Shown piece after piece: positions 8,345 to 41,240 of a DNA stretch of 64,000 nucleotides (position 1 is the stretch's first letter; every line of letters starts with the position of its first letter). Made by a program: the position numbers and the translations under genes. Below the pieces are notes generated by a model, which saw only the letters and a program-made list of their open reading frames with translations, made no database searches and was not told where the DNA came from. Origin of the DNA: Scytonema millei VB511283 (lineage in GTDB: Bacteria > Cyanobacteriota > Cyanobacteriia > Cyanobacteriales > Chroococcidiopsidaceae); NCBI RefSeq assembly GCF_000817735.3, contig NZ_JTJC03000001.1:319710-383709 (forward strand). Direction: 5' to 3'.

Positions 8345-11300
8345 ATGCATCGTATCAGTACCACTCCTGGAGATTGGAATCCTCAAGCTAATGGTGTCGC
8401 TTTATTTGCACAAACTCCAGCTCCTTTGGTGTTTCTTACTGCTACCGATACCGATATTCAAACTTTGGCAGCAGCAGTGACTCAGTTACCGATAGACTTT
8501 CCCACTTTTCGAGTTGCTAATTTGCTGCAATTACAGCAACAGATAGTTATAGATACTTATGCAGAAGACGTTTTAGAAAAAGCTCAAGTTATTATACTAC
8601 GGCTTTTGGGGGGACGATCGTATTGGTCTTATGGTTTAGAAGTGGTGCGGGAAACAGCACGGCGGACTGGTGCAGCACTGATAGTTATCCCAGGAGATGA
8701 CGCGATCGACCCCGATTTAATCGCACATTCGACTGTTCCGTTAGCAGTGGGAAATCGACTGTGGCGATATTTTCTAGAAGGTGGAGTAGAAAATGCCGTC
8801 AATGCTCTGCTATTCGCTGCCGATTGCTGCCTTCATACTTCATACAATCCTCAACCTCCACAGGTGGTTCCGCGCGTGGGGTTATATGGGTGGAAGGGAG
8901 TCGGAGAGAAGAGAGCTGAGGAAGCTGAGGAAGCTGAGGAAGCTGAGGGAGAAAAACAACCGTCAACCAACTACCAATTACCAACTACCAACTACCAACT
9001 ACCCAAAATTGGCATTCTGTTCTACCGCGCTCACTATTTGGCAGGTAATACGGGTGTAATTGACGATTTGTGTCAAGCATTGGTAGCCAGAAATCTATTA
9101 CCAGTACCAGTTTTCGTTTCTTCGCTACGCGATCCAGAAGTGCAAGCAGAAATTCTATCTTACTTCCAGCCTCAAGACGAGGCAGAAATTCAAGTCTTAT
9201 TAAATACAACCAGTTTTTCTCTGACACGCATTTTTCCGACTCCCGACTCCCTAGTACGGGCGCACTGTTGTGCGCCCGTACCGGCTCCCGCTAACTTATG
9301 GCAACAACTAGATATACCAATACTGCAAGTTATTTTTAGTAGCAGTTCAATTTCAACCTGGGAGACAAGTTCTCAAGGACTATCGCCACGGGATATTGGC
9401 ATGAATGTGGCTCTACCAGAAGTGGATGGGCGCATTATTAGCCGTGCTGTGTCGTTTAAAGCAGTACAGAGCTGGAATGCAGCTCTAGAGACGAATGTAG
9501 TCGTTTACGAGTCGGTGCGCGATCGCCTGGAATGTGTTGCTGAACTAACTCAGCGTTGGGTGCAGCTGCGTTCTCGTCCGCCAGCAGCACGCAAAATCGC
9601 TCTGATTTTGGCAAACTATCCCAATCGTGACGGACGTTTGGCAAATGGAGTTGGATTAGATACTCCTGCTAGTTGTATAGAAATTCTCAAATCGCTCCAG
9701 CAAGCAGGATATCAAGTAGAAAATCTACCGCGAACTGGAGACGAACTGATCCAACGCCTGACATCTGGAGTGACAAACGATCCTGATAGTCAGTGGCGAT
9801 CGCTCCCACAGCAATTAAGCTGGCAAGAGTATCAACAATATTTTGCCACCCTTCCTGAAGCAGTGCAGCAGGGGATTGTTAGTCGGTGGGAGCAGAAGAG
9901 AGCTGAGGGAGCTGAAGGAGCTGAGGGAGCTGAGGGAGCTGAGGGAGTGAATAGACTTACTACTCACTACTCACCGCTCACCACTTATTCCCGACTCCCG
10001 ACTCCCGACTCCCGACTCCCCATTCCTGGTATTCAACTCGGTAATGTTTTCGTAGGGATTCAACCAGCACGGGGGTACGATCGCGATCCGGCGTTAAATT
10101 ACCACGCGCCTGACTTGGAACCACCGCATACTTATTTGGCTTTTTATTATTGGCTGCGAGAGCATTTTGGTGCTGATGCGATCGTCCACATAGGCAAGCA
10201 CGGTAATTTGGAATGGCTTCCAGGTAAAAGCGTGGCACTCTCAAGTCAGTGTTATCCCGAAATTGCTTTAGGTGCTATGCCCCATTTCTATCCGTTTATC
10301 GTCAACGATCCTGGGGAAGGTTCGCAAGCAAAACGCCGCGCCCAAGCAGTGATTATCGACCATTTAACGCCTCCCATGACGCGGGCAGAACTCTATGGAG
10401 CGCTACACCAATTAGAAAGTTTAGTTGACGAGTATTACGAAGCTCAAAGTCTAGATCCGACTCGATTGCCAGCCATTAGCGATCGCATTTGGCAATTAAT
10501 TAAACAAGAAAATTTACACTTAGACTTGGGGATGGAGCGGGAGTCGGGAGTCGTAGGGGCGGGTTTTTTTGCAGAGCCTTATGAAAAACAAACAGTTCTG
10601 CAATTAAACCCGCCCGTACAGGAGTTGGAGAACAGAGCTAGGGGAGCTGAGGAAGAAAAAATCCAATTACCAATTACCCATTACCAACTACCAACTACCA
10701 ACTACCAACTACCAATTAACCAACTCGACGGTTATTTATGCGAACTCAAAGAAGCTCAAATTCGCGATGGTTTGCATATATTTGGGCAATGCCCGCAAGG
10801 AGAACAATTACGAGATTTAATTGTAGCGATCGCTCGTCAACCTAATTCCTACCAACCAGGAATCACCCGCGCAATTGCTCAAGCCTGGGAATTAGATTTC
10901 GATCCCCTCACGGCAGATTTCAGCACTCAACTTTCAGAGACAAGCGCTCGAATTTTATCAGCAAAAACTCAAACACCCTGTCATACAATCGGCGATGCGA
11001 TCGAGGTGTTAGAACAATATGCGGCTGAGTTGGTGGAAGTATTGATTGGGGAATCGGGAGTCGGGAGTCGGGAGTCGGGAGTTGGAGATAAACGAGCAGA
11101 GGGGCAGAGGGGCAGAGGGGCAGAGGAAGCAGAGCTAAGGAAGCAGAGGAGCAGAGCTGAGGAGCAACTACCAACTACCAACTACCAATTTTCTACACCC
11201 CCTTCCCGGCTCCCAAGTACGGACGCACAGCAGTGCGCCCCTACCGACTCCCGACTCACTTCATTAAATTGGATTCGCGATCGCCTCTTACCCGCTTTAG

Positions 11301-12613
11301 CACAAACTCAACAGGAAATTACCAATTTACTACATGGTTTGGATGGGTGCTACGTTCCTAGTGGGGCATCGGGTGCGCCGACGAGAGGTCGTCCAGAAGT
11401 ATTACCAACAGGAAAAAATTTCTACTCGGTGGATATCCGTGCCATTCCGACAGAAACGGCTTGGGATATCGGACGTAAAGCAGCTGAAGCTTTAATCGAA
11501 CGCTACACGCAAGAAAATGGGGAATATCCCAAAACTCTGGGTTTGTCGATTTGGGGAACTTCTACCATGCGGACTGGGGGAGATGACATTGCTGAGGCGT
11601 TGGCTTTGTTGGGAGTGCGTCCGGTATGGGATGGGGTTTCTCGGCGGGTGGTGGATTTTGAAATTTTGCCTCTATCGGTGTTGGCGCGTCCCCGCGTGGA
11701 TGTAACTTTAAGAATTTCTGGTTTTTTCCGCGATGCTTTTCCTAATTTAATCGATCTGTTTGACAGTGCCGTTGTTGCCGTGTCGCAGTTGGACGAACCG
11801 CTAGCCCAAAATCCCCTAGCTGCCAAGGTGAAACAAGAAACTCAGTTTTGGCACTCGGCAGGATTGACACCAGAAGAGGCAAAAGAGCGATCGCTTTACC
11901 GTGTTTTTGGTTCTAAACCAGGGGCTTATGGAGCTGGGTTACAAGGATTAATTGAAGCGCAAAATTGGACGGGCGATCGCGATTTAGCCCGTGCTTATAT
12001 TAATTGGAGTTGCTACGCTTATTCCCGCAACTCAGAAGGACGAGCCGCCCCAGAAGCGTTCGAGCAACGTTTAGGCGAAATGCAAATTGTCTTGCACAAC
12101 CAAGACAATCGCGAACACGATCTGCTCGATTCTGACGATTACTATCAATTTCAAGGTGGTTTAACTGTTGCCGTGCGTGCCGTTCGCGGTAAAAATCCTC
12201 AAACATATTTTGGTGACAATTCTATTCCGGCAAACCCTCGCGTTCGTCATTTAAAGGAAGAAATTGCCAAGGTATATCGTTCTCGCGTCGTTAATCCGAA
12301 ATGGATTGCGGGGGTGATGCGTCACGGTTATAAAGGGGCTTTTGAAATGGCAGCGACAGTAGATTATTTATTTGCCTACGATGCTACAGCTGATTGCGTG
12401 GAAGATTATATGTATCAAGGCATTGCCGAAGCTTATTTATTCGATCCAGCCGTCCAAGACTTCGTGCAACAAAAAAATCCTTGGGCATTACGAGATATGG
12501 CAGAAAGGTTAATTGAAGCCAAGCAGCGAGGATTGTGGCAAGTGACACCAGAGATTATAGATAAGTTACGAGCGATCGCCCACCAAGCAGAAGGAGCGAT
12601 CGAAGAAAAATAG
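8345..12613 (+). CDS. cobN: Cobaltochelatase CobN-type subunit (CobN/BchH family) with five repeat-coded inserts
   Basis: A 1422-residue large chelatase subunit, longer than the 1200-1300 usual for CobN. Conserved blocks include HIGKHGNLEWLPGK, IVNDPGEGSQAKRR, SIWGTSTMRTGGDD, and the C-terminal WIAGVMRHGYKGAFEM and PWALRDMAERL. The family inserts Co or Mg into tetrapyrroles using ATP with a CobST or ChlID partner. In cyanobacteria this protein is assigned to cobalamin synthesis. Five segments break the alignment at about 8899-9003, 9236-9290, 9893-10024, 10536-10720 and 11048-11262. They encode low-complexity peptides (AEEAEEAEE, NYQLPTT, RLPTPDS, AEGAEGAEG, RESGVGS), all in frame. Start ATG 8345 follows an AGAGAG stretch. 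Confidence 0.88.
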   Translation: MHRISTTPGDWNPQANGVALFAQTPAPLVFLTATDTDIQTLAAAVTQLPIDFPTFRVANLLQLQQQIVIDTYAEDVLEKAQVIILRLLGGRSYWSYGLEVVRETARRTGAALIVIPGDDAIDPDLIAHSTVPLAVGNRLWRYFLEGGVENAVNALLFAADCCLHTSYNPQPPQVVPRVGLYGWKGVGEKRAEEAEEAEEAEGEKQPSTNYQLPTTNYQLPKIGILFYRAHYLAGNTGVIDDLCQALVARNLLPVPVFVSSLRDPEVQAEILSYFQPQDEAEIQVLLNTTSFSLTRIFPTPDSLVRAHCCAPVPAPANLWQQLDIPILQVIFSSSSISTWETSSQGLSPRDIGMNVALPEVDGRIISRAVSFKAVQSWNAALETNVVVYESVRDRLECVAELTQRWVQLRSRPPAARKIALILANYPNRDGRLANGVGLDTPASCIEILKSLQQAGYQVENLPRTGDELIQRLTSGVTNDPDSQWRSLPQQLSWQEYQQYFATLPEAVQQGIVSRWEQKRAEGAEGAEGAEGAEGVNRLTTHYSPLTTYSRLPTPDSRLPIPGIQLGNVFVGIQPARGYDRDPALNYHAPDLEPPHTYLAFYYWLREHFGADAIVHIGKHGNLEWLPGKSVALSSQCYPEIALGAMPHFYPFIVNDPGEGSQAKRRAQAVIIDHLTPPMTRAELYGALHQLESLVDEYYEAQSLDPTRLPAISDRIWQLIKQENLHLDLGMERESGVVGAGFFAEPYEKQTVLQLNPPVQELENRARGAEEEKIQLPITHYQLPTTNYQLPINQLDGYLCELKEAQIRDGLHIFGQCPQGEQLRDLIVAIARQPNSYQPGITRAIAQAWELDFDPLTADFSTQLSETSARILSAKTQTPCHTIGDAIEVLEQYAAELVEVLIGESGVGSRESGVGDKRAEGQRGRGAEEAELRKQRSRAEEQLPTTNYQFSTPPSRLPSTDAQQCAPTDSRLTSLNWIRDRLLPALAQTQQEITNLLHGLDGCYVPSGASGAPTRGRPEVLPTGKNFYSVDIRAIPTETAWDIGRKAAEALIERYTQENGEYPKTLGLSIWGTSTMRTGGDDIAEALALLGVRPVWDGVSRRVVDFEILPLSVLARPRVDVTLRISGFFRDAFPNLIDLFDSAVVAVSQLDEPLAQNPLAAKVKQETQFWHSAGLTPEEAKERSLYRVFGSKPGAYGAGLQGLIEAQNWTGDRDLARAYINWSCYAYSRNSEGRAAPEAFEQRLGEMQIVLHNQDNREHDLLDSDDYYQFQGGLTVAVRAVRGKNPQTYFGDNSIPANPRVRHLKEEIAKVYRSRVVNPKWIAGVMRHGYKGAFEMAATVDYLFAYDATADCVEDYMYQGIAEAYLFDPAVQDFVQQKNPWALRDMAERLIEAKQRGLWQVTPEIIDKLRAIAHQAEGAIEEK
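9254..9281 (+). repeat. 28-bp palindrome inside cobN (GTACGGGCGCAC family, copy 1)
   Basis: GTACGGGCGCACTG and its mirror TTGTGCGCCCGTAC form a near-perfect 28-bp inverted repeat, flanked by CGACTCC/GGCTCCC heptamers and read in frame as part of a peptide containing RAHCCAPV. A related copy lies at 11217-11244 in the same gene. The base pairing predicts a strong hairpin in the mRNA. Confidence 0.75.
10553..10619 (+). repeat. 67-bp inverted-repeat element inside cobN (GGGCGGGTTT family, copy A)
   Basis: The element starts GTAGGGGCGGGTTT and ends AAACCCGCCCGTAC. The inner part contains ATGAAAAACAAACAG. It matches the layout of 15046-15110 (spacer) and 39854-39920 (inside the phytyltransferase gene). 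Here it is read in frame within cobN insert 4, giving GAGFFAEPYE and LNPPVQ. This looks like a small non-autonomous element nested in GGGAGTC heptamers. Confidence 0.7.
11217..11244 (+). repeat. 28-bp palindrome inside cobN (GTACGGGCGCAC family, copy 2)
   Basis: GTACGGACGCACAG paired with CAGTGCGCCCCTAC forms a second, slightly decayed copy of the palindrome at 9254-9281. It is again surrounded by CCCGGCT/CGACTCC heptamers and read in frame (STDAQQCAPTDS). Confidence 0.7.
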
Positions 12614-14975: not shown

Positions 14976-15202
14976 AAGTTAAAAGTTAAAAGTCAAAATT
15001 GTGAATCTTATTCAATTTGAACATGGAAGTCGAGAGTTGGGAATTGTAGGGACGGGTTTTAGAGAGATCTATGAAACAACAAATAATTCTTCGGTTAAAC
15101 CCGCCCGTGCAGGAGTCGGGAGAAGAAATTTTCCTGATTGGTTGTGAATTTCATTCATTATGTCTCCTGCAAAAGTCAAGAACCATCTGCGTTCCAGAAG
15201 TA
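14976..15202 (+). repeat. Repeat spacer containing a GGGCGGGTTT element (copy B, 15046-15110)
   Basis: AGTTAAAAGTTAAAAGTC heptamers (14975-14997) are followed by an element of GTAGGGACGGGTTT ... AAACCCGCCCGTGC at 15046-15110 with ATGAAACAACAAAT inside. It closely parallels the copies inside cobN (10553-10619) and the phytyltransferase gene. GGAGTCGGGAG heptamers flank it. No gene seen. Confidence 0.7.
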
Positions 15203-38828: not shown

Positions 38829-39080
38829 ATTTCCTCAAATTGCTAATACTACTGTTTAGACCCTATACAAACAGAGTACCATTTCCATCCTCCCCAGGAA
38901 AGAAGCTAAGTGACACTTATCAGTTGTCAGTTATCAGTTATCAGTTATCAGCTATCAGTTATCAGCTATCAGTTGTCAGTTATCAGTTATCAGTTATCAG
39001 TTGTCAGTTGTCAGTTGTCAGTGAAGAAAGGGAGTAGGAAGCAGCATACAAATGACCAGTGACTCTTGACCAATGACAAA
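38829..39080 (+). repeat. Long CAGTTAT/CAGTTGT heptamer array (about 38915-39020)
   Basis: Close to 15 consecutive heptamers (TCAGTTA, TCAGTTG, TCAGCTA) fill 38917-39022, the longest uninterrupted array seen. Unique sequence at 38829-38915 holds the likely promoter of the upstream minus-strand gene. No gene seen. Confidence 0.8.
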
Positions 39081-40223
39081 TTAACCCAGCAAACAAGCTA
39101 CCGGAAACAAAATATATTCTAAAAAGAAGAGTTTCCAAATGAATTGATAACAACTCGCGATCGCGCTTTTATCTTGTAAGTTTACTTGACGGCTGCGCCA
39201 CCATAGCAAAGCTAAGAGTAATAAGTGGGTACTGATGAGAAAAGTTGAGTTAACTGAGGGAAGTCCTAGAATTCCTGCAATTATTATACCTATATAACAT
39301 GTAGTTATTACCCAAAGTGCTAGGTTAAAAACTTTTTCTTTCCCTAAAGCAATGGTGAAAGTTGTAATGTGATATTGGCGATCGCCTTCTAAATCGGGAA
39401 TGTCCTTAAAGATTGCGATCGCAAAGGTAAATACTAAAATAAATAAAGTTAGCGTCCAAACCGAGCTAGGAATTCCTGAAAATCCTTGCCATAACCAGTT
39501 GAAATGTAGAAATAATCCTAAGTTGACTATTGCTCCTCTAACCGAAAAAATGCATAAAGCTGCCCAAAAAGGAAATCTTTTCAACCGGATTGGTGGTAAG
39601 GAATAAGCTGTTCCAATAGCTAAACTGATTGCTACCATGCCAAATAAATACCATCCAGCAACCCCAGCTAATACTAGCGCTAAAAGCCCCGTTATGGCTA
39701 TTAAAATTTGACCTGTACGCCGGGAAAACTCACCAGATGCTATTGGTAAATGAGGTTTATTAATTTTGTCGATTTCAACATCTTCCAGTTGATTCAAGCC
39801 AACAATATAAATATTGCCACACAGACAAGCAACCCACGCCAAAAATAGGGGCTGTAGGGGCGGGTTTAGCCAATGAATTATGCGTTCGATGAGAGAACTA
39901 TCTACAAAACCCGCCCGTACGGAAGTCGAGAGTTGAATTATGCGTTCGATGAGAGAACTATCTACAAAACCCGCCCGTACGGAAGTCGAGAGTTGAATTA
40001 TGCGTTCGACAAGAGAGCTATCTGCAAAACCCGCCCGTGTGGGAGTTGGAAGTTGGGAAAGATCGATTTGTGCATCAAAGGCAATTAAATACATTCCTAA
40101 GACGCTTAAACTCGTACCGATAATTGTGTGGGGACGCGAGAACTTCCAAAAAGCATAAAGCCACTCAACTAAATTTAATCGCCTGACTTTCGGCGTTCTC
40201 TGCGTCTTGACGGTACGTTTCAT
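39081..40223 (-). CDS. hpt: Homogentisate phytyltransferase with a tandemly repeated insert
   Basis: A 380-residue UbiA-family membrane prenyltransferase, longer than the usual 310-320. The prenyl-diphosphate site NQLEDVEIDKINKP and the second acidic site DIPDLEGDRQYH define homogentisate prenyltransferases, which join homogentisate and phytyl diphosphate in tocopherol synthesis. About eight membrane helices are expected. Residues about 56-115, before the first conserved aspartate loop, hold a 20-residue unit (RAGFVDSSLIERIIQLSTSV) repeated three times. The unit comes from a 60-bp tandem repeat at 39876-40055. The gene starts at ATG 40223, overlapping the methyltransferase stop as TAATG, so the two tocopherol genes are coupled. 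Confidence 0.9.
   Translation of the reverse strand: MKRTVKTQRTPKVRRLNLVEWLYAFWKFSRPHTIIGTSLSVLGMYLIAFDAQIDLSQLPTPTRAGFADSSLVERIIQLSTSVRAGFVDSSLIERIIQLSTSVRAGFVDSSLIERIIHWLNPPLQPLFLAWVACLCGNIYIVGLNQLEDVEIDKINKPHLPIASGEFSRRTGQILIAITGLLALVLAGVAGWYLFGMVAISLAIGTAYSLPPIRLKRFPFWAALCIFSVRGAIVNLGLFLHFNWLWQGFSGIPSSVWTLTLFILVFTFAIAIFKDIPDLEGDRQYHITTFTIALGKEKVFNLALWVITTCYIGIIIAGILGLPSVNSTFLISTHLLLLALLWWRSRQVNLQDKSAIASCYQFIWKLFFLEYILFPVACLLG
39854..40055 (+). repeat. GGGCGGGTTT element (copy C) extended into a 3 x 60-bp tandem repeat
   Basis: GTAGGGGCGGGTTT at 39854 is followed by the first of three copies of a 60-bp unit starting at 39876, 39936 and 39996. Each ends with AAACCCGCCCGTAC or a variant, then GGAAGTCGAGAGTTG. 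Copies 1 and 2 are almost identical; copy 3 differs at a few bases. The element's outer arms match copies A and B. All lies inside the hpt reading frame. Confidence 0.85.
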
Positions 40224-41077
40224 TACTTAATCCCACACAACAAGCCAAATCGAATTAAACCACGCTGGTAGCCCCGCTGCATCAGCCCCAGAGACAATGC
40301 TGCTTGAATTGTTTCCCAGCCAGATAAAATTAAACCTAATATTGCCGTGGGATTAAGAGCGGAATCGATGACTACATCCCAAAATGGCGCTACAGCAGTT
40401 GACCAATCTGCGGTACGGATGCCGTTTAAATTAAGATTGCGGGCGATCGCTTCATATTCCGGTAAGGCGATCGTGTAAGGTAAGTGATACACCTCGTAAA
40501 TCTCGTTTAGATGCTTTTGCTCGTCTGCTGTCAGAATACCTCCTGACTGAGCATCCGTAGGGCGATGACACCAAGTCACCATAATTAGCTTTCCCCCAGG
40601 TTGCAGCACGCGGTAGCACTCTTGCATGAACTGAACCTTATCGGGCATATGTTCACCGCTTTCTAATGCCCAAACAAAGTCAAAACTGTTATCCGCAAAA
40701 GGCATATTCTGAGCATCTGCAACTAAAAATTCGGTTTTTTGACTCAACCCGATAGCTTGAGCGCGTTGAGCCGCTCGATTTGCTTGAAACGGGCTGAGAG
40801 TAATTCCCGTGGCTTGGGCATTGTATTTTTGGGCGAGATATAGCGAACTACCACCTATACCGCAGCCAACATCAAGGATATGCTTTGCTTGCTCGACATC
40901 TGCCCATTGCAGCAGTTCTTCAATTAAATCAATTTGTGCCTGTCGCCGCTCTTTTCTCTGTTTTCCATCTGTGCCATAGTAGCCATGATGCATGTGTTCC
41001 CCCCACACCTGTTCCCACACACTAGAGGAGGAATCGTAGAATTGCCCAATCCGCTCGTAAAGTGTTGCACTCATCAC
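40223..41077 (-). CDS. Gamma-tocopherol methyltransferase (SAM-dependent)
   Basis: A 284-residue methyltransferase with motif I HILDVGCGIGGSSLYLA (about 66-82), QNMPFADNSFDFVWALESGEHM and a C-terminal LIRFGLLCGIK. The start MSATLYERIGQFYDSSSSVWEQVWGEHMHHGYYG matches the tocopherol/plastoquinone methyltransferase family, and pairing with hpt on the same transcript points to tocopherol (VTE4/Slr0089-like) rather than MPBQ methylation. The ATG pair at 41077/41074 leaves the start open. Acts at the membrane surface on gamma-tocopherol or tocotrienol. Confidence 0.85.
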   Translation of the reverse strand: MMSATLYERIGQFYDSSSSVWEQVWGEHMHHGYYGTDGKQRKERRQAQIDLIEELLQWADVEQAKHILDVGCGIGGSSLYLAQKYNAQATGITLSPFQANRAAQRAQAIGLSQKTEFLVADAQNMPFADNSFDFVWALESGEHMPDKVQFMQECYRVLQPGGKLIMVTWCHRPTDAQSGGILTADEQKHLNEIYEVYHLPYTIALPEYEAIARNLNLNGIRTADWSTAVAPFWDVVIDSALNPTAILGLILSGWETIQAALSLGLMQRGYQRGLIRFGLLCGIK

Positions 41078-41104
41078 AACTCAGTATTAACGTAACCCGC
41101 AATT

Positions 41105-41240
41105 AGCCTACCACAAGAGACAAGTCGTAAGTCGTAAGTCGTAAGTCGTAAGTCGTAAGTCAAAATTTACCTCTCTCACCTCTTACCCCTCACCTCTTAT
41201 CTCTCCCCTCTCACCCCTTACCTCTCACCCCTCACCCCTC
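41105..41240 (+). repeat. AAGTCGT and CCTCACC heptamer arrays
   Basis: AGTCGTA units (six in a row, 41120-41160) and CTCACCTCTTACCCCTCACC units (41170-41238) run up to 3 bases before the ktrB start. The divergent methyltransferase lies upstream. If a promoter is present it must be embedded in these arrays. Confidence 0.75.

Follow-up and report, generated by a model that had tools for sequence, protein, structure and literature searches.

A dispersed GTAG-tipped palindromic element, coding in frame and partly repeated in tandem, in a membrane loop of homogentisate phytyltransferase of Scytonema millei and its relatives

In many genes, Rickettsia palindromic elements have turned into in-frame coding sequence, and Nezha and other cyanobacterial MITEs are small non-autonomous inverted-repeat elements. 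Intragenic GTAG REPs are described in the main-text sections of Di Nocera et al. 2013 (PMC3733652) as short GTAG-tipped palindromes that are dispersed, often lie in tandem together with their flanks and are in some cases wholly intragenic. Their dimers or groups code for 20–30 residues and their clusters for 43–82, and the host genes include DNA repair genes. Most single GTAG REPs have short loops (2–4 bp in many, 9–15 in GTAG-15 and up to 27 in some GTAG-14), and they often occur with a RAYT gene (PMC3733652). Cyanobacterial REP families are named there as well, without a cyanobacterial host gene in the sections considered, as are Nezha and cyanobacterial MITEs, and the Rickettsia palindromes in genes are given as CGTC-type repeats (RPE-4, RPE-6) or the longer RPE-1 (PMC3733652). 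A related system, the REPINs, has inverted conserved ends in one hairpin, with doublet spacing peaks at 71 and 110 bp in the authors' strain; in the parts of that account that deal with clusters, tandem REPINs include the flanks, and Nostoc punctiforme is named (Bertels and Rainey 2011, PMC3116915).

The locus reported here lies in a window of 64,000 nucleotides, the whole stretch of DNA analysed, from the source genome of Scytonema millei VB511283 (G000; assembly of 5.97 Mb in 17 contigs), which was compared with two genomes of the same genus (G008 and G009), one of the sister genus (G007) and further members of the family. A 67-bp GTAG-tipped stem-loop was found in the loop between the first two membrane helices of homogentisate phytyltransferase (HPT). 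The features of the locus are as follows.

39081–40223, minus strand: homogentisate phytyltransferase (HPT, UbiA superfamily), 380 aa; PF01040 2.7e-44; NF009525
40223–41077, minus strand: methyltransferase gene directly upstream of HPT; its stop codon and the HPT start share one base
39854–39920, plus strand: complete 67-bp element with left arm GTAGGGGCGGGTTT, a middle of about 40 nt and right arm AAACCCGCCCGTAC; folds as one 3+10 bp stem
39854–39867, plus strand: left arm GTAGGGGCGGGTTT of the HPT element, single occurrence
39874–39933, plus strand: tandem unit 1, 47 bp of element and 13 bp of flank (46+14 with the phase one base later)
39921–39934, plus strand: 14-bp flank GGAAGTCGAGAGTT, like two GGGAGTC-type 7-mers, carried within the tandem unit
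39934–39993, plus strand: tandem unit 2, identical to unit 1
39967–39980, plus strand: right arm, second copy
39994–40038, plus strand: tandem unit 3, partial and diverged; codes for the first copy in protein order
40027–40040, plus strand: right arm, third copy, with a degenerate tip

The host gene is a single open frame of 380 codons (39081–40223, minus strand) and is identified as HPT by its score with the NCBIfam HPT equivalog NF009525 (478.7 bits against a cut-off of 226, the match being split over two stretches), by an Asp-rich NQxxDxxxD motif of which N, Q, D and D are invariant among 36 aligned HPT sequences, and by a UbiA fold, since the top PDB fold matches were UbiA homologues (6m31, 7bpu, 4tq4). 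The one-base overlap with the methyltransferase suggests an operon of tocopherol or quinone synthesis; among the 25 NCBIfam matches listed for the methyltransferase (40223–41077), none reached its cut-off. In the AlphaFold model the helix bundle is good, with helix 1 at residues 31–52 and helix 2 at 123–147, and residues 51–120 between them have block pLDDT values of 46–59, with three short low-confidence helices within 70–119. The Asp-rich motif occupies residues 144–152 at the distal end of helix 2, so the TM1–TM2 loop lies on the opposite side of the membrane, which in UbiA proteins would be the lumenal or periplasmic face.

The initial annotation had proposed a small inverted-repeat element inside HPT and a frame-neutral tandem of 60 bp. 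Both are borne out by the 67-bp element at 39854–39920 in a gene that is HPT by NF009525, and by Tandem Repeats Finder, which reports a period of 60 with 2.8 copies (2.75) and 96% matches at 39874–40038, with the HPT frame open throughout. That the element itself was tripled holds in part: a 60-bp unit is present 2.75 times, but the left arm occurs once and only 46–47 of the 67 bp, including the right arm, are repeated together with 13–14 bp of flank. The phase of this unit is ambiguous by one base because one junction base is common to both. Likewise, the peptide RAGFxDSSLxERIIQLST had been read three times; three copies exist, yet QLST closes only two of them. In protein order, copy one is PTRAGFADSSLVERIIQLST and copy two SVRAGFVDSSLIERIIQLST, whereas copy three ends in RIIHWLNPP. 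With one mismatch allowed, GGGGCGGGTTT occurs nine times in the window against 1.0 expected, and none of 100 shuffles reached nine. Element and tandem together add about 60 residues to HPT, in line with the loop enlargement claimed ahead of the Asp-rich motif. In the 36-sequence alignment, length is constant in 13 of 17 intervals, and interval 45–130 is by far the most variable, with a median of 23 and a maximum of 85 residues, the latter in the source protein; the other variable intervals include 240–256, which spans 12–24 residues, and 309–325, which spans 15–16. The interval minima of 0 (30–45) and 8 (45–130) are meaningless, as they stem from the start-less fragments L104 and L108; the shortest loop in a wider survey of HPT loci had 19 residues, counted from a different anchor.

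Beyond HPT, the element is one member of a dispersed family. A search with the exact pattern GTAGGGGCGGGTTT-N20-50-AAACCCGCC, which counts symmetric elements on both strands, gave 145 matches in G000 (71+74) and none for the reversed-pattern control, and 168, 64 and 37 matches in G008, G009 and G007, respectively. At least 97 distinct elements of G000 were read in their loci among the matches listed. Their lengths peak at 67–68 bp (67/97), and the right end is CGTAC in 59 of 97, so that the mirror is GTAC and not GTAG; the GTAG at the left end of matched elements is fixed by the search pattern. The arms measure 14 nt with one mismatch. When 46 distinct elements of 67–68 bp with the CGTAC ending were folded with DNA parameters, the arms were paired in all 46, and the consensus stem has 3+10 bp with one mismatch and closes a variable middle of about 40 nt. 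A local hairpin within the first 25 nt was present in merely 2 of these 46 typical elements, so that each end is not itself a palindrome as in a REP.

Like the GTAG REPs, the element is GTAG-tipped, dispersed in high copy number, found in tandem with its flank and intragenic; unlike them, its arms pair across about 40 nt and rarely fold singly (2/46), and no RAYT was found in G000. With REPINs it shares the high copy number, the inverted pair of ends in one hairpin and the tandem copies that include flank; however, a REPIN is a RAYT-tied doublet of palindromic REPs, whereas the ends of this element are not palindromic. Rickettsia palindromic elements are alike in being palindromes that code in frame, but their sequences and host are unrelated. 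The element is short, has terminal inverted repeats and carries no transposase of its own, as a MITE would, and Nezha-like MITEs resemble it in small size and inverted repeats; for this element neither a parent IS nor a target duplication was demonstrable, the parent having been sought by PF01797 alone. Since its arms pair with each other and rarely fold alone, it is not a strict REPIN, and we call it REP/MITE-like.

A RAYT was considered as the mobiliser and was not found in the PF01797 (Y1 transposase) search of G000, which gave eight matches of two repeated types, none with an element arm in its locus; PF01797 matches are present in the element-bearing relatives too. Restriction of the element to the genus and its sister genus holds within the family, where 4 of 19 genomes carry it, but fails in the order, where the exact pattern is patchily distributed over 93 of 291 genomes. 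The few empty sites lie in or beside degenerate 7-mer repeats, and 17 of 97 elements have a 7-mer motif no more than 30 bp away, compared with 13 of 1695 control positions. This is an enrichment, which may reflect target preference or joint spread, as both fit. Among the 60 Tandem Repeats Finder rows in the window, many have a unit of 7 bp or a multiple of it (e.g. 38917–39022 and 41122–41161). A degenerate copy of the element was also noted at 15046–15110 of the window (GTAGGGACGGGTTT ... CCCGTGC) and was not seen in the aligned regions of G008 and G009.

A search for HPT in the family gave a match in all 19 genomes; the one in G016 was weak (1.6e-8) and was taken for a paralogue, leaving 18 family genomes with HPT. 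The HPT loop holds three units in G000, two in G008 and one in G009. The loop of G007 has, at the same place and in the same frame, a diverged element of this type (VRAG ... YPPL). These four are the same genomes that hold the element at all. In the remaining 14 the loop is short and without the element, so that the case which would have spoken against the initial annotation, a loop common to all related phytyltransferases, is not what the family presents (4/18 with the element, 14/18 without). A clean empty site is not seen in HPT because the loops of the element-free relatives are too diverged. By comparison of flanks, G000 has exactly 60 bp of extra DNA relative to G008 and 120 bp relative to G009. 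With the units numbered as in the protein, there is one difference in 57 bases between units 2 and 3 of G000 and there are two in 57 between the pair in G008, and units of different genomes differ at 4–14 bases; unit 1 of G000 is closer to G008 (5/60) than to its own neighbour (9/60), so duplication or exchange of the units probably happened more than once. The likeness of the units could be due to recent duplication or to constraint. Over the aligned region, HPT identity is 93.1% for G000 and G008, 92.4% for G000 and G009 and 93.9% for G008 and G009, and these near-equal values (92.4–93.9%) give no branching order for the three. Outside the insert, pN/pS is 0.07, calculated for the G000–G009 pair alone, G008 being off in length by one codon, and in this one species pair the value points to strong purifying selection.

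For these observations we consider it highly probable that a REP/MITE-like element was captured in frame, neutrally, in a tolerant loop of HPT and then expanded by slippage; the mechanism of insertion, the slippage and the neutrality of the units are what we infer. The element family, its in-frame coding, the series of one, two and three units and, for one species pair, the purifying selection on the remainder of HPT are shown. A non-autonomous, dispersed GTAG-tipped palindrome of about 67 bp would have entered HPT in frame before the genus diversified. It would have landed in the TM1–TM2 loop, away from the Asp-rich active-site motif and little constrained in length, and the enzyme would have stayed functional. 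A 60-bp segment would then have been duplicated, most simply by replication slippage, giving two and three units in different species, with the frame kept because any multiple of 60 is frame-neutral. The extra 20-residue units would be short, flexible, partly helical linkers, probably without an acquired function, and the HPT insert looks harmless.

It has also to be considered that the units are selected, for example for membrane-surface anchoring, partner binding or tuning of the amount of enzyme, and that their copy number is adaptive. The units are still open and alike, one, two and three of them are kept in three species, and the AlphaFold model has a short helix per unit; the open, diverged element at the same place in the sister genus would also fit a useful loop. 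Nevertheless we regard this explanation as unlikely, as the AlphaFold confidence is low at the units, the same element recurs, also in tandem, in unrelated proteins, and the HPT loops of other lineages hold unrelated repeats or none.

As to the unrelated proteins, an element of G000 was scored as genic when no fewer than 60 codons ahead of it and 40 behind it were open in its frame. This applied to 14 of 97, of which L213 and L223 were judged doubtful and counted as non-genic, leaving 12 genic elements in 10 ORFs. Eight ORFs were identified by family models, namely HPT and seven others (CobN, BchH, a lipid-A-disaccharide synthase-related protein, RecN, UvrC, homoserine dehydrogenase and an acyl-CoA ligase-like protein); for the ORFs at L055 and L209, Pfam gave no match at 1e-5. 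Three of the seven carry in-frame tandems, with periods that are all multiples of three: RecN (L060) and the acyl-CoA ligase-like protein (L210) of 78 bp each, and homoserine dehydrogenase (L204) of 66 bp, where one of the two copies has a degenerate arm. All 12 genic elements have a length of 1 mod 3, compared with 36 of the 85 others, a contrast of about 1e-4 by simple arithmetic that becomes weaker when tandem pairs are counted once. A net insert must therefore add 2 mod 3 beyond the element. One of these sites has an empty counterpart in a congener:

10553–10619: element in frame within CobN (8345–12613, plus strand), empty site in congener G009

Against this empty site, CobN of G008 has gained a net 81 bp (67+14), which fits the 2 mod 3 addition; for CobN of G000 the excess is 98 bp, which is not divisible by three, as the repeat tracts beside the element differ. 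In UvrC, 13 of 20 loci were readable (the motif failed in seven), and the element is present in G000 only; the linker of G008 and G009 holds another palindrome with repeats, and the remaining readable loci have none. This DNA-repair protein appears to have received layered repeat insertions. The second palindrome, GTAGGGGCGCATAGCTATGCGCCCCTAC, has versions in frame in UvrC of G000, G008 and G009 (L227–L229), beside the site of the G000-only element. In homoserine dehydrogenase, the element is likewise in G000 only (17 loci read).

A selected open frame of the element itself was considered as well. Of the six frames in G000, VGAG...NPPV is open in 68 and VRAG...NPPL in 72 of 97 elements, against about 43 and 42 in shuffles (0/400 as high), and they remain raised among the 85 elements counted as non-genic. 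After clustering at 0.75 similarity both are open in 36 of 55 (0/400 shuffles each); after clustering at 0.65, which leaves 23 elements, VGAG...NPPV is open in 16 (6/400 shuffles) and VRAG...NPPL in 11 (167/400). The same two frames are open in 16/21 and 13/21 in f32_g75 (shuffles as high 0/300 and 1/300), in 15/27 and 16/27 in G007 (12/300 and 13/300), where two other frames are raised more, in 9/24 and 4/24 in f32_g61 (209/300 and 300/300), and in 4/21 and 2/21 in f16 (300/300 for both). Across lineages the result is mixed, and a selected frame was not adopted; we take the raised frames to reflect shared ancestry of element subfamilies and not a general property.

Other lineages were covered by a survey of 124 HPT loci with 116 distinct loops, which were mostly the best matches to the source HPT and not a random draw. 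By motif tags, which may overlap, four loops hold this element, 17 hold GTAGAGAC-type palindromes (among them L012, which is false, and L086, with a different centre), three hold TACGCTCACGG repeats, 15 hold 7-mers, and 80 hold none. Units of 24 bp occur three times in L070, L074 and L284, twice in L076, L077 and L079, and once in L084, L095, L120 and L143. The exact Nostoc palindrome is dispersed in 8 of the 10 genomes asked, with 1–11 sites each (both strands counted), and was found in 6 of the 7 asked genomes that have a palindrome loop, the exception being that of L074; the other Nostoc repeat was found in 4 of 5 genomes, with 40, 8, 6 and 5 matches, the exact HPT copies included. Judged from these loci, the HPT loop of Nostoc evidently holds different dispersed repeats in frame, sometimes in tandem. 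Given this dispersal in the host genomes, the loop has taken in unrelated repeats in other lineages. We give about an even chance to the wider idea that dispersed repeats have landed and been amplified again and again in the TM1–TM2 loop of HPT in cyanobacteria. No fewer than three unrelated dispersed families (this element, the Nostoc GTAGAGACGCG palindrome and the Nostoc TTCGRCTACGCTCACGGCAAGCC repeat) would then have become coding there independently and multiplied in frame. Loop length would be evolving and perhaps vary between strains, and repeats of this sort would generally supply these genomes with new linker peptides.

Another proposal is that the repeat acts as RNA or DNA, for instance through a transcript hairpin that slows translation or alters mRNA stability. 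The arms are complementary, and pairing of the arms in all typical elements (DNA parameters) would suit such a role; yet the HPT stretch folded as RNA had a modest stability (z −1.77, 13/200 shuffles as good), 39000–41200 gave no Rfam match up to E=1, and we hold this to be very improbable. Least probable of all is that the assembly created the third unit, or any unit beyond the first. Units 1 and 2 match each other at all 60 bp, and G000 is in 17 contigs; but unit 3 differs from them, which makes it likely that two units or more are real, and the congeners have two units on a 6.66-Mb contig and one on a 6.3-Mb contig.

With neutral capture and slippage as the preferred reading, the case is ordinary in kind and unusual in clarity, and is part of a wider habit in G000. 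REPs inside genes and REPs clustered in tandem have been described before; what is added is HPT as a host gene, the series of one, two and three units, and the repeated use of the loop. In the open literature, as covered by titles and the beginnings of abstracts, no report was found of tandem repeats in HPT or of this element in Chroococcidiopsis or other cyanobacteria. For annotators, VRAGF/VGAGF...NPP stretches in element-bearing proteins are a warning that such sequence is repeat-derived. The set of CobN, BchH, UvrC and RecN allows asking which protein positions tolerate repeat peptides and whether any of these are used. HPT itself offers a tractable case of how a mobile-looking palindrome becomes protein, in one gene of one genus, with one, two or three units and the remaining enzyme under selection.
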